Assembly: GCA_001885315.1 (NCBI GenBank)
Contig: MLPZ01000001.1
Span: 186,001 to 250,000, forward strand
Direction: 5' to 3'
DNA length: 64,000 nt
Source of the DNA: Treponema sp. CETP13
GTDB lineage: Bacteria; Spirochaetota; Spirochaetia; Treponematales; Treponemataceae
Positions 26,728 through 34,989 of this stretch are shown here, in pieces; position 1 is the stretch's first letter; each line of letters opens with the position of its first letter. A program made the position numbers and the translations under genes. The notes below the pieces were generated by a model. The model saw only the letters and a program-made list of their open reading frames with translations, was not told where the DNA came from and did no database searches.

Positions 26728-27177
26728 ATGGATATAAAAACCAAATCATTAGGCATTGTAAATATTGACAAAAAACCGAAATTTCAAATTCCTTCAGGAT
26801 TGTTTGGTTTTGAAGAAGAAAAAAAATATGTTTTACTAGAATCGGACTATAGCCCTTTTTTTTGGTTACAATCTATAGAAAACGATAAGCTTGCATTTCT
26901 TGTTGTAGATCCATTCACTTTTTTTAGTGATTATGAAATAGATTTAGATGATGGAACTGTTGAAGATTTGGGAATAAAAAAGCCTTCTGATGTGATGATA
27001 CTGACTATTATAACTATTCCAAAAGAAGGAAAACCTATAACAGCAAATTTACAAGGACCCTTAGTAATTAATAAAAGAAATAATATCGCAAAACAGGTTA
27101 TACTTGACAACCCTCAATGGACAACAAAACATTCTTTACATGAAGCTATGCAGTCTAAACGAGGTGATAAATGCTAA
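26728..27177 (+). CDS. fliW: Flagellar assembly factor FliW
   Basis: Binds and sequesters CsrA, and is itself titrated by cytoplasmic flagellin, so that flagellin translation tracks export. The 149 residues show the family opening ([20 protein letters not shown]), [20 protein letters not shown] and [20 protein letters not shown]. It overlaps csrA by 7 nt, the standard pairing, which supports the FliW-CsrA control of flaB proposed below. Confidence 0.96.
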
Positions 27178-27401
27178 TATTATCAAGAAAAATAGATGAG
27201 AAAATAAGAATTGGAAAAAATATTAGTATTACGGTCATCGAAATTCGTGGTGATCAAGTGAAATTGGGCGTAGAAGCTCCTAAGAGTGTAAAAGTTTTTC
27301 GACAAGAAGTTTTTAATGCTATTGAAAAAGAAAACGCTGAAGCTGCTTATGCAAGTTCTAATATTACAAATCTTTCAAATTTATTAGATAAGGAAGATTA
27401 G
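27171..27401 (+). CDS. csrA: Carbon storage regulator, RNA-binding translational repressor
   Basis: A dimeric RNA-binding protein that recognises GGA in hairpin loops and blocks ribosome binding. The 76 residues begin [15 protein letters not shown] and contain [18 protein letters not shown], including the conserved Arg (VFRQEV) that contacts RNA. The C-terminal tail is slightly long, as in FliW-regulated CsrA proteins. It overlaps fliW upstream and its end overlaps the convergent tsaB by 4 nt. Confidence 0.97.
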
Positions 27402-31461: not shown

Positions 31462-31821
31462 TTATCTTAACTCATTTACAAGGAAACCAAAAGTTTCTTT
31501 CATATGTATTCTAAGTTTTTGTATTTCTTCTGTCGGTATCTCCTTAATTACCTTATCGGTATAGGGATCAACAACCTTGATAATTACATCTCCTAATCTG
31601 TCGTTTACAGAAAATTGAATTTTTCTGCCGACTGCATTTGAAATATCCTGAATTTCTTGAATATCATTCTTTGTTTGTTCAATATTTTTTTGCAATTCTT
31701 TAGATACTTTGGCTATGTTTTCGGTTGTAGATGTGTTGTGAATTGATTTTGAAAATTTTTGTGTTGATGTACGGCCATCCATTGCCGAAATTTGCCCAAT
31801 TGTATTTATCTGTAAACTCAT
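31462..31821 (-). CDS. flaG: FlaG family protein
   Basis: A 119-residue flagellar protein thought to affect filament length. I moved the start to 31821 (MSLQINTIGQISAMDG) because GGAGG lies 8 nt upstream; the longer frame to 31863 would run into a strong hairpin. A coiled N-terminal half is followed by the FlaG core (KIQFSVNDRLGDVIIKVVD, DKVIKEIPTEEIQKLR, MKETFGFLVNELR). It lies between flaB and fliD. Confidence 0.9.
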   Translation of the reverse strand: MSLQINTIGQISAMDGRTSTQKFSKSIHNTSTTENIAKVSKELQKNIEQTKNDIQEIQDISNAVGRKIQFSVNDRLGDVIIKVVDPYTDKVIKEIPTEEIQKLRIHMKETFGFLVNELR

Positions 31822-31847
31822 GGGAAAATCCTCCGTGAAAATAGATG

Positions 31848-31871
31848 CCAAAGAGGGGCGCACCTCTTTGG
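31848..31871 (-). other. Stem-loop in the flaB-flaG intergenic region
   Basis: A perfect 9 bp stem CCAAAGAGG / CCTCTTTGG with a 6 nt loop, just upstream of the flaG Shine-Dalgarno. There is no U tract, so it is more likely an mRNA stabiliser or processing site that lets flaB mRNA outlive the flaG-fliD part. Confidence 0.7.
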
Positions 31872-31939
31872 TTCTAGATAATTACTTAAAAAGACGACAT
31901 CCAGTTTTCTCTTAAAGTAATTAAGCATAGACTGTTTTG

Positions 31940-32797
31940 TTATTGCAACAGGCTCAACACGTTTTGTGATTGTGAATTTGCTTGTGCAAGCATAGCAGTA
32001 CTAGCCTGTGTTAAAATTTGATTTTTTGTAAAATCAACCATTTCTGAAGCCATATCTGAGTCACGGATTTGTGATTCTGCAGCTTGTGTGTTTTCCGCAG
32101 CAACATTAATACCGTTAGCAGCCATTTCAAAACGATTTTGATAAGCACCTAAGTTAGCTCGTTGTTTTGAAACAGTTTTGATTGCTTCATCAATTGTACC
32201 AATAGCCATGTTTGATGAACTAGCATCCGATATAGAAATCGAAGCTGTTGTATCGCCTTGAGCTCCTGTTAAACCGAGGGCTTGGGCACTCATGGTTCCA
32301 ATAAAAATTTGTGTGTTCTGGTCCATATTTGCACCAATTTGGAACTGCATCCCTTCACCAAGTTCAGAAGTTTCTGCAAATCTACCTGTAAGCATATTCA
32401 TTCCATTGAATTGTGCTTGACTAGCAATTCTATCTACTTCAGATACTAGTTGTGAAACTTCTACCTGAATCTGCATTCTATCTTCATCAGTATAAATACC
32501 ATTAGAAGATTGAACTGCTAATTCACGAACTCGCTGCAAGATATCAGTAGTTTCGCTAAGATAACCTTCAGTAGTTTGAATAAAAGAAACACCATCTTCA
32601 ATATTTCGATTAGCTTGATTTAAGCCACGAATTTGAGATCGCATTTTCTCTGATACAGCAAGACCTGAAGCATCGTCTCCGGCTTTATTTATGCGTTGAC
32701 CAGAACTGAGTCTTTCCATGCTAGATTGTGTATTAGCATTGTTAATGCCTAACTGTCTGTTCGCATACATTGAACTCATGTTGTGATTGATAATCAT
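31940..32797 (-). CDS. flaB: Periplasmic flagellin FlaB (copy 1)
   Basis: Core filament protein of the periplasmic flagella. The 285 residues show the D0/D1 termini typical of spirochaete Fla[41 protein letters not shown], and the ending [19 protein letters not shown] then [13 protein letters not shown]. The variable central domain is minimal, as in all FlaB. GGAGGG precedes the ATG. It is about 75% identical by eye to the second copy just upstream. It has its own long, structured leader. Confidence 0.97.
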
Positions 32798-32960
32798 ATG
32801 TTACCCTCCATGTTTAGTGAACAGGAACTTCTTGTTCCTGTCCTGTCGTATATACACCGAGCATATAAAGGTTTTAGCGCCTTCCTTTATATGTTTTAGT
32901 CTCTTACAACAGGAACTGTCACATTTTTAATAAATGTAACCGTTTCTGTTGTATGTATAT
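32798..32960 (-). promoter_or_regulatory. Structured leader of the downstream flaB
   Basis: Three successive hairpins precede the start: 32821-32841 (ACAGGAAC/GTTCCTGT), 32862-32893 (CATATAAAGG/CCTTTATATG) and 32906-32952 (ACAACAG/CTGTTGT enclosing ACATTT/AAATGT). On the minus strand ACAGGACAGGA repeats give two GGA cores beside the first hairpin, and GGAGGG is the Shine-Dalgarno. This fits CsrA-type translational control. Confidence 0.6.
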
Positions 32961-33188
32961 ACTGGAGGATATTTTTTTTAAAGAACAATTGCCATAAAAT
33001 ATGGTTTGTAACTAAGAGCTACAAACGATTGGTAACAGATTTTACATCGTTACAATCACAAAAATAGTTACTAAAAAAACATAAAATACTTTTTTGGATT
33101 TCTAAGAAGTGAAATGATAAGCAATAATCCAATCAAAGTCGTAGATGCAAGTAAAAAAATACTTACACCTACAACCTATTATAATACA
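32961..33188. other. Rest of the intergenic region between the two flaB genes
   Basis: AT-rich, no gene. I see no confident sigma28 or sigma70 promoter on the minus strand, so the downstream flaB may be made from a longer flaB-flaB transcript or a promoter I cannot recognise. It contains the hairpin at 33141-33172. Confidence 0.5.
33141..33172. other. Long hairpin downstream of the upstream flaB
   Basis: A 13 bp stem (33141-33153 with 33160-33172; two wobble pairs on the minus-strand RNA) and a 6 nt A or U loop. No U tract follows the stem on the minus strand, so it is not a standard terminator; stabilisation of the flaB 3' end is plausible. Confidence 0.65.
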
Positions 33189-34049
33189 CTATTGAAGCAA
33201 AGACAAGACATTTTGTGAACTTGAATTAGCTTGAGCCAACATTGATGTACCAGCTTGAACTAGTATAGAGTTTTTCGTGAACTCAACCATCTGTGAAGCC
33301 ATATCCGTATCACGAATAGTGCTTTCAGCTGCTTGTAAGTTTTCTGATGCAACTCCTAAACCTGTAACAGTCATTTCTAAGCGGTTTTGATAGCCACCAA
33401 GGTCTGCACGTTGCTTGTTTATTTTTGTTAAAGCTTCATCTAGTGTACCGATTGAACGGTTTGCCTCATCAGGAGTTGATATATCAAGAACTCCTTCTGT
33501 GCCAATGTCACGTACTCCAAGAGCTTCTGCTGTCATTGTACCGATAAAAACCTGTGTTCGCTGATCCATATTAGCACCAATGTGGAGCCACATAGAAGAA
33601 GTTACAGTGTTCTCACCTGTAGGACGAGCAAATCTGCCTGTGAGCATGTTTAGGCCGTTAAACTGTGCCTGACTAGCAATTCTGTCAACTTCAGCAACTA
33701 GCTGAGAAACTTCAACTTGAATTTGCATACGATCTTCATCAGTATAAATACCGTTTGAAGATTGGACTGCTAATTCACGAACTCTCTGAATAATATCTGA
33801 CGTTTCTTGTAGATATCCTTCAGTAGTTTGAATAAAACTAATGCCATTAGATGCATTATTAGAAGCTTGATTTAAACCTCTAATTTGGCTTCTCATTTTT
33901 TCAGAAACTGCAAGACCTGAAGCATCATCACCAGCATGGTTAATTCTTTCTCCAGATGATAGTTTCTGCATATCTTTCTGTTGTGAAAGATTTGCTGTTC
34001 CTAGTTGTCGATTTGCATACATTGCCGACATGTTGTGGTTTATGACCAT
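33189..34049 (-). CDS. flaB: Periplasmic flagellin FlaB (copy 2)
   Basis: The second flagellin paralogue, 286 residues, with [17 protein letters not shown] at the start, [20 protein letters not shown], and the closing [20 protein letters not shown] then SQNVLSLLQ. Differences from its neighbour cluster in the short central region (about 140-200). The Shine-Dalgarno GGAGGA is inside a hairpin. It is served by a sigma28-like promoter about 165 bp upstream, hence a long leader. Treponemes usually carry several FlaB paralogues that co-assemble. Confidence 0.97.
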
Positions 34050-34053
34050 AATT

Positions 34054-34095
34054 TTTCCTCCATGGAAATTGTAATAGAAAGCATCCTTGCTTTCT
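34054..34095 (-). promoter_or_regulatory. Two CsrA-type hairpins over the flaB ribosome-binding site
   Basis: Upstream hairpin: AGAAAGC-AAGGAT-GCTTTCT (34095-34076), whose loop matches the ARGGAU core of the CsrA consensus. Downstream hairpin: TTTCC-ATGGA-GGAAA (34068-34054), with GGA in the loop and the Shine-Dalgarno in its 3' arm. The GGA cores are about 25 nt apart, within reach of one CsrA dimer. Confidence 0.7.
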
Positions 34096-34162
34096 TTTGT
34101 TGTGATAGTTTTCCCCTTTTGTATTTAAGGCTACGTTGGGGAAAACAGACACATTGTTTAGA

Positions 34163-34199
34163 ACTAGATAGATTAAATTATTCGTTTAATAAATCTAGT
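34163..34199 (-). promoter_or_regulatory. 5'-end hairpin of the flaB mRNA
   Basis: ACTAGAT-(2 nt)-ATTAAA, a 7 nt loop, and TTTAAT-(2 nt)-ATCTAGT form a long symmetric stem starting about 8 nt after the predicted transcription start. Such 5'-terminal stems usually protect abundant mRNAs. Confidence 0.65.
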
Positions 34200-34213
34200 A
34201 CCTCACATTTGTA

Positions 34214-34241
34214 TATTCGGCATATATACATAAATGCTTTA
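34214..34241 (-). promoter_or_regulatory. Sigma28-like promoter of flaB
   Basis: On the minus strand TAAA (34241-34238), 16 bp, then GCCGAATA (34221-34214), close to the FliA consensus TAAA-N15-GCCGATAA. It lies about 165 bp upstream of the flaB ATG, with no other gene between. Confidence 0.7.
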
Positions 34242-34272
34242 GTTTTTTTTAAAAAAAATATATATTTTATTT

Positions 34273-34989
34273 ATGAAATGTCCATTTTGCAGAAAAAATG
34301 ATTTATATTCTATCTATAACACAAAAAATATGTACTGGAGATGTAAAAATTGTAATGGGATTATTAGAGATAAAAGTTTTTTATTATCTCCTCCTGAACA
34401 AAAAAAACGATATTTATATCATAATAATGATATAAATGACCCTGGTTATAAAAAATTCTTAATGGATTTTATTCAACCCATTCTTGATGAGGCAAGTCAA
34501 AATTGTTCTATCATACAAAAGCCTATTACTCGAATAATTGATTATGGTTGTGGTCCAATTAAAATAGAAACTCTTTCCAATCTCAATTGTATTTTTCAAG
34601 CACTAGTCGAAAAAAGTAATAGTGACAATCAAACCTTGTTTGCTTCTGATTGTGAGCTTTTACAATGGGATCCTTTTTTTTCTCCTAATCCAATTGCACT
34701 TAAAGATCCAGCTGACCTTGTCTGTTGTTTAGAAGTAGTTGAACATTTTGAGAATAGTAAAGATGATTTTGAATATTTAGCTAAAGCTTGCAAGGTTGGA
34801 GGAATAGTTGTAATTGGAACTATGCTTGTGCCAGATAAGGATGAAGATTTTAAAAAATGGTGGTATAAAAATGATGCCACACATGTTTCTTTTTATTCTT
34901 TAGAATCATTAAAACAGTGTGGCATTAATGTAGGACTACAATATGTAAAGGCTTTAACTGAAAGGTGTTTTATGTTTGTAAAAATATAA
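34273..34989 (+). CDS. Zinc-ribbon SAM-dependent methyltransferase
   Basis: A 238-residue class I methyltransferase. An N-terminal zinc ribbon (Cys3, Cys6, Cys24, Cys27) is followed by a Rossmann fold with the SAM-binding IIDYGCGPI, a CCLEVVEHFEN post-I region and GGIVVIGTML as strand 5. Similar proteins act on various substrates, so the target cannot be named. The gene is divergent from flaB and convergent with rdgB (2 nt between the ends). A flagellar role is possible only from position. Confidence 0.8.
   Translation: MKCPFCRKNDLYSIYNTKNMYWRCKNCNGIIRDKSFLLSPPEQKKRYLYHNNDINDPGYKKFLMDFIQPILDEASQNCSIIQKPITRIIDYGCGPIKIETLSNLNCIFQALVEKSNSDNQTLFASDCELLQWDPFFSPNPIALKDPADLVCCLEVVEHFENSKDDFEYLAKACKVGGIVVIGTMLVPDKDEDFKKWWYKNDATHVSFYSLESLKQCGINVGLQYVKALTERCFMFVKI

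Follow-up and report, generated by a model that had tools for sequence, protein, structure and literature searches.

The leader of the flaB1-type flagellin gene of Treponema sp. CETP13 carries two hairpins of the type bound by CsrA, the second of which lies over the Shine-Dalgarno sequence (SD), and we estimate at about 0.88 the probability that this leader functions as a CsrA-controlled translational switch.

The flaB1 locus

The DNA analysed, hereafter the window, is a stretch of 64 kb from contig MLPZ01000001.1 (positions 186,001-250,000) of a 2.54-Mb genome in 21 contigs. Its minus strand carries two adjacent flagellin genes (33189..34049 and 31940..32797), whose products of 286 and 285 aa both contain Flagellin_N and Flagellin_C domains, followed by the genes for FlaG and FliD. 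The pair was named flaB1 and flaB3 because, according to the available text of PMC9481697, flaB1 and flaB3 of T. denticola share one operon and flaB2 lies elsewhere. A third FlaB gene of Treponema sp. CETP13 (flaB2) is found on a separate contig. On the plus strand, the window contains genes for an FlgN-like protein (22.4 bits, under the Pfam cut-off), FlgK, FlgL (assigned from its position and flagellin-type domains), FliW and CsrA.

The gap between flaB1 and flaB3 contains a separate hairpin, CATATAAAGG/CCTTTATATG with loop AAGGCGCTAAAA (32862-32893, minus strand), a possible processing or attenuation site, and most flaB3 leaders across the order have a GGCGC block at the same position. Further downstream (31821-31930, minus strand), FlaG probably starts at the ATG at 31821 rather than at the listed GTG, behind a leader with a strong hairpin CCAAAGAGG/CCUCUUUGG and the SD CACGGAGG.

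Two CsrA-type hairpins in the flaB1 leader

Direct reading of the minus strand from 34095 to 34076 gives the first hairpin, P3, with the sequence AGAAAGC[AAGGAT]GCTTTCT (as RNA AGAAAGC[AAGGAU]GCUUUCU), a hexaloop at 34088-34083 closed by a stem of 7 bp. The second, P4, extends from 34068 to 34054 and reads TTTCC[ATGGA]GGAAA (UUUCC[AUGGA]GGAAA), with a stem of 5 bp. The SD GGAGGA occupies 34061-34056, ahead of the ATG at 34049-34047, so that the P4 loop takes in half of the SD (its GGA) and the rest is paired in the stem. The two sites are 25 nt apart from A to A. The initial annotation, which had proposed two such hairpins with one over the SD, a consensus AAGGAT loop, a second ATGGA loop tying up the GGAGGA and a spacing suited to a bridging CsrA dimer, is thus borne out, the length of the P3 stem being a small correction; the spacing falls inside the range of 10-63 nt given for two bridged CsrA sites in the accessible part of PMC7652899. 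The leader therefore has three features of CsrA/RsmA-repressed leaders: an ANGGA(N) motif in a hairpin loop (P3, on a covarying stem), a second site overlapping the SD (P4) and a permissible distance between the two.

Folding of a 76-nt RNA yielded exactly P3 and P4 in the leader at -14.9 kcal/mol, as compared to -7.45 +/- 2.24 kcal/mol for 200 shuffled sequences (z -3.33), none of which folded as well. The Vienna fold places an extra A-U pair within the P3 hexaloop, which CsrA would need to open. On both strands of the window, P3 is the sole ANGGAN hexaloop closed by at least six Watson-Crick pairs, when 0.15 perfect hexaloops of this kind are expected (mean of 60 Markov-1 windows). With G-U pairs permitted, one further hexaloop appears (16434, plus strand), for a total of 2 vs 1.35 expected. 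Since ANGGAG is a common SD sequence, an SD-overlapping copy of it carries no information by itself.

Conservation in relatives

The leaders of the 80 best protein relatives and the window's own two were scanned for both hairpins. The hexaloop hairpin was present in 48 of these 82 leaders, the SD hairpin in 47 and both in 46, vs 1.0%, 0.17% and none, respectively, of 8100 shuffled leaders. The 34 leaders devoid of the hexaloop resemble those of other flaB paralogues, as judged from the leaders themselves, with the exception of L011, in which the hairpin is imperfect. Spacing between P3 and P4 is 22-31 nt in 46 of the 48 hexaloop leaders; the other two (L050 and L063) carry an additional hairpin between P3 and P4, which brings the A-to-A distance to 53 and 55 nt. 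The flaB1 leader of another genome (L280, G151) contains a tandem duplicate of P3, GCGGAAGC[ACGGAT]GCTTCCGC followed by CCGGACGC[ACGGAT]GTGTCCGG.

An alignment of 45 leaders was built from the 48 by removal of the duplicates L060 and L076 and of the two with an inserted hairpin, and by addition of L011 by eye. The A-N-GGA of the P3 loop is invariant in all 45 leaders, and all eight stem pairs of this hairpin show compensatory changes on both sides. Alignment cells of P3 and P4 are paired in 94.5% of cases vs 72.4% after shuffling, and the covariation score reaches 0.592 vs 0.195 +/- 0.016 in shuffles, falling to 0.039-0.125 when the structure is slid by one to three columns. The A-N-GGAGG of P4 is likewise invariant across the alignment. 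Its stem is 94.7% paired yet mostly invariant, four of the five pairs being devoid of compensatory change and only the outer pair varying on both sides; P4 is hardly testable through covariation because its right arm is the SD, and its support comes from sequence conservation and from the outer pair.

A fixed loop on a changing stem is what a CsrA site should show, and this bears on the idea that P3 and P4 merely stabilise the mRNA or tune the ribosome, their GGA being a purine-rich, SD-like sequence with which CsrA has nothing to do. P4 fits this idea, since it holds the SD and would keep its GGA regardless. The loop of P3, a hairpin outside the SD, is nevertheless fixed in every aligned leader while every stem pair changes, and a mere stabiliser would not be expected to fix the loop. 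Together with the co-occurrence of csrA and flagellin genes described below, this makes simple stabilisation a very improbable explanation, the least probable of those considered here.

CsrA and FliW

The fliW gene (26728..27177, plus strand) encodes a 149-aa CsrA antagonist, identified by its profile (146.9 bits vs a cut-off of 25) and by a match to chain A of 5dmb at 1e-30. It overlaps by 7 nt the beginning of csrA (27171..27401, plus strand), which encodes a 76-aa protein scoring 84.6 bits against PF02599 (cut-off 27). One csrA and one fliW are present in the whole genome. Their placement about 7 kb from flaB1 in the initial annotation agrees with our distances to the flaB start, 6.6 kb from the end of csrA and 7.3 kb from the start of fliW, with the correction that the pair lies on the opposite strand.

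Residues 1-67 of the 76 align to 1t3o, the CsrA of B. subtilis, and the protein also matches the FliW-bound CsrA of 5dmb, as expected of a FliW-regulated CsrA. R44, which contacts RNA, is kept, as are N55 and a C-terminal extension. An N55D mutant of CsrA was used in the work described in the available sections of PMC6529632. Taken together, the conservation of the hairpins and a single csrA that overlaps fliW and keeps R44 and N55 make CsrA-FliW control of flaB1 translation very likely; binding of CsrA, repression and relief by FliW are the steps that we infer.

Across the order, csrA was found in 260 of 291 genomes. In 60 genomes of other families that were searched, it accompanies FlaB in 48 of the 52 genomes with this flagellin and occurs in none of the eight genomes lacking it (Fisher p 2e-7). 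Nine flagellin-bearing genomes of the order without csrA were checked for the neighbouring flgL. Six of them (G084, G231, G245, G246, G036 and G053) have no true FlgL, only flagellin-level matches, so that the flgL-fliW-csrA block is probably lost in an assembly gap; FlgL is cut short in G288 and partial in G052, which again points to assembly gaps. A full FlgL is kept in G049 alone, which may be a real loss of csrA. We consequently do not retain these genomes as counter-evidence, with G049 as the exception. In two more genomes (G136 and G236), FliW is truncated at the edge of a contig or close to it.

A second structured domain upstream

A sigma-28-like promoter, TAAAGCAT-N12-GCCGAATA (34214..34241, minus strand), precedes flaB1 and corresponds to a TAAAG...CCGA element in most aligned relatives; the strict pattern was met in 32 of 49 leaders, two of the 32 being spurious. 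The predicted leader begins near 34207 and is about 160 nt long. Two hairpins occupy its upstream part: P1 at the 5' end (34155..34207, minus strand), seen in the single-sequence fold and as a consensus helix with compensatory changes in relatives, and P2 (34108..34146, minus strand), composed of GUUUUCCCC/GGGGAAAAC with the apical loop GUAGCCUU (34134-34127) and seen in the fold and in alignments. Most flaB1 leaders of the family measure about 145-185 nt from the conserved element and contain both. P1 of the window has diverged in sequence from its Treponema relatives.

A second alignment of 59 full leaders was obtained from 77 candidates after removal of duplicates and near-duplicates, leaving out the short L056 and L083, the atypical L050 and L063, and L085 and L022, which have neither P1 nor P2. 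In these 59 leaders, 32 of the 40 pairs over all helices change on both sides, with a covariation score of 0.497 vs 0.212 +/- 0.008, and the P2 apical loop AGCCUUGUA is nearly invariant on a covarying stem. The window has GUAGCCUU on a differently built P2 stem and its row is out of register, so that the evidence for its own two upstream hairpins is the single-sequence fold. Since rows were chosen, for instance by excluding L085 and L022, this alignment is uninformative on how frequent P1 and P2 are; a loose pattern of the P2 loop was found in 46 of the 48 hexaloop leaders, the exceptions being those same two.

Several candidate identities for this domain were considered and rejected. A known RNA element was not recognised: Rfam returned four tRNAs only over the whole window at the gathering cut-off, and chance-level matches to unrelated families only at E<=5 over 32780-34330. 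Within 946 kb of collected loci, the P2 motif GATGTAGCCTTGTA was found 55 times, always ahead of an SD and ATG, and is therefore not a dispersed repeat. Kissing of the P2 loop (CCUU) with the AAGG of the P3 loop or with the SD is unsupported because the second loop letter varies in both P3 (A 49, C 7 and U 3 of 59) and P4 (A 28, C 20 and U 11 of 59) while the P2 loop remains nearly constant.

P1 and P2 may serve to stabilise the 5' end or may provide another binding site. It could also be supposed that flaB1 is controlled chiefly through this domain and another factor, the CsrA hairpins being secondary or a relic, as the near-invariant P2 loop on its covarying stem in 59 leaders would allow. 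P3 and P4 are nonetheless present without P1 and P2 in a T. denticola-like genome (G058), in T. parvum and across the phylum, which identifies them as the older and wider module, and we regard a leading role for P1 and P2 as very unlikely.

flaB3 and flaB2 leaders

At the position of P3, the flaB3 leader of the window carries a hairpin, ACAGGAAC[AAGAA]GUUCCUGU (32821..32841, minus strand), whose loop has no GGA and which is followed by the SD AUGGAGG. This hairpin is usually kept in place in the family of the window, where about 39 of 47 loops have no GGA and typically read ANGAN. GGA is present in the loops of eight of the 47 leaders, a count corrected by eye from the nine obtained with RNAfold (L039 and L046 have other hairpins and L057 had been missed). 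No CsrA-type hairpin was found in the leader of the third FlaB of Treponema sp. CETP13, which has only CCCAAGGAG at its SD. From these sequences, CsrA control appears to be concentrated on flaB1 in this lineage, and with a flaB3 hairpin devoid of GGA and a flaB2 devoid of any such hairpin, CsrA of Treponema sp. CETP13 probably determines the proportions of the flagellins in addition to how much of them is made.

Leaders of flaB2 type from rumen Treponema (L023, L025, L028-L030, L048, L053, L059, L079 and others) share a conserved AGGGUGG after the TCCGA box, with no ANGGA hairpin in the last 100 nt before the start. A riboswitch was considered in these leaders and discarded, with no Rfam match at 14 loci and no supported consensus fold among 18 leaders.

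Distribution in the order and the phylum

Both hairpins, as found in the Treponema relatives, were combined in a covariance model (R1). At E<=0.1 it matches 227 of the 291 genomes of the order, including about 170 of the 177 in the window's own family (counted by hand from the result table), and a FlaB start opens every one of the 30 best loci. Among the seven family genomes without a match, G012 has both flaB1 hairpins by eye; the flagellins identified in the remaining six do not belong to the flaB1 type as judged from their leaders, so that flaB1 was probably not recovered there. Four relatives in the family have a second match; it lies on the leader of the gene that follows flaB3, FlaG by its position.

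Three further families of the order, represented by 99 often GC-rich stretches, have the same loops on different stems. The hexaloop hairpin was found in 36 of 42 flaB1 leaders (2.0% of shuffles) and in 47 of 57 lone, mostly flaB2, leaders (1.1% of shuffles), and 35 of 42 flaB3 leaders have the corresponding ANGGA hairpin with a loop of 5-8 nt (4.2% of shuffles). By eye, the six flaB1 leaders failing the rule also have the ANGGA loop, on a stem with a mismatch close to it.

Over the phylum, R1 matches 82 of 247 genomes at E<=0.01. Of 16 matches read outside the order, in other families and classes, 15 are located directly on a flagellin start; the remaining one, in G482, falls on an unrelated gene. 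The T. denticola-like G058 has the P3/P4 pair on flaB1, and a GGA hairpin was seen by eye in all three of its flaB leaders. The breadth of this two-hairpin layout suggests an old brake on the making of the swimming filament.

Proposed mechanism

In the switch that we favour, a single CsrA dimer would bridge the two hairpins, one of its surfaces on the ANGGAN hexaloop of P3 and the other on the ANGGA loop of P4, and would thereby cover the SD and block ribosome loading. For as long as flagellin export continues, free FliW would bind CsrA and lift the block; once export stops, flagellin would occupy FliW and CsrA would shut flaB1 off. These CsrA and FliW steps are established in B. subtilis (available text of PMC7652899 and PMC6529632), and the roles of both proteins in C. 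jejuni (available text of PMC4894983).

The leader could instead act chiefly as a sponge that titrates CsrA away from other flagellar mRNAs, self-repression being secondary. The flaA mRNA of C. jejuni is a precedent in the portion of PMC4894983 consulted, and a flagellin mRNA behind a conserved sigma-28-like promoter is expected to be abundant. The location of P4 on the SD serves repression, however, and other targets of CsrA are not evident, as there is no other perfect hexaloop hairpin in the window and one R1 site at E<=0.1 in the genome. We consider a predominant sponge function unlikely, with a better claim than stabilisation or a leading role for P1 and P2, and retain the translational switch.

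Comparison with known systems

Borrelia burgdorferi has a single flaB gene and differs from Treponema sp. CETP13 in having no sigma-28. Its flaB leader is alike in that CsrA represses FlaB through sites over the SD (Sze 2011, as related in citing papers). The closest likeness is the flaA 5'UTR of C. jejuni, with two ANGGA-loop stem-loops (SL1/SL2), the second over the ribosome site, compensatory changes, a flagellin gene, a sigma-28 promoter and FliW as antagonist; it differs in a leader of 45 nt, vs about 160 nt from the predicted start and the additional P1 and P2 here, and binding was proved there by mutation, gel shift and footprint (PMC4894983, available text), while for Treponema it is deduced. 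The hag leader of B. subtilis also has two CsrA sites, one over the SD, with fliW and csrA adjacent and coupled and the N55 position of CsrA kept, but B. subtilis has a single flagellin, and no counterpart of P1 and P2 is described in the available text of PMC7652899 and PMC6529632.

Among spirochaetes, CsrA binds the flaB3 and flaB4 leader RNAs of Leptospira at a GGA hexaloop near the start codon, and the flgN-flgK-flgL-fliW-csrA order is the same; in contrast, one site per leader is described, and overexpression of CsrA in L. interrogans raised flaB transcripts, an effect of opposite sign (PMC8668096, accessible part). For T. denticola, Kurniyati 2022 mentions CsrA sites near the SD of flaB1 and flaB2, with no structure or alignment in the available text, and a sigma-70-like flaB1 promoter (PMC9481697), whereas a sigma-28-like TAAAG...ACCGAAG element lies upstream of flaB1 in the T. 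denticola-like G058 (L121). CsrA sites near T. denticola flaB1 and flaB2 are thus already mentioned in print, and the layout itself is that of C. jejuni flaA. Among openly licensed papers, we found no report of the phylum-wide conservation, of the flaB3 hairpin losing its GGA, as it has in the window and in most Treponema relatives, or of the upstream P1/P2 domain with its near-invariant GCCUUGUA loop, which is also absent from Rfam.

Biological significance

Spirochaete filaments are made of several flagellins in fixed proportions, and how these are set is an open question. In much of the order, flaB1, flaB2 and flaB3 all have ANGGA hairpins, which have been stripped from flaB2 and flaB3 in the lineage of the window. 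A tentative extension, which we would rather bet against than on, is that P1 and P2 form an undescribed regulatory RNA of the Treponemataceae flagellin mRNA, whose near-invariant AGCCUUGUA loop would bind another partner, whether a protein, an sRNA or FliW itself, flaB1 integrating this signal with CsrA, and that the family rewired its control by loss of GGA from the flaB3 hairpin, CsrA setting the ratios through flaB1. The two-hairpin leader defines an RNA family lacking in Rfam, with an unexplained upstream domain. If our reading holds, CsrA should also control flaB1 in T. denticola and in the T. pallidum-sized G012, which is difficult to investigate directly. The reading also offers a concrete and testable answer to the question of flagellin proportions, in which CsrA and FliW would tune each flagellin separately.
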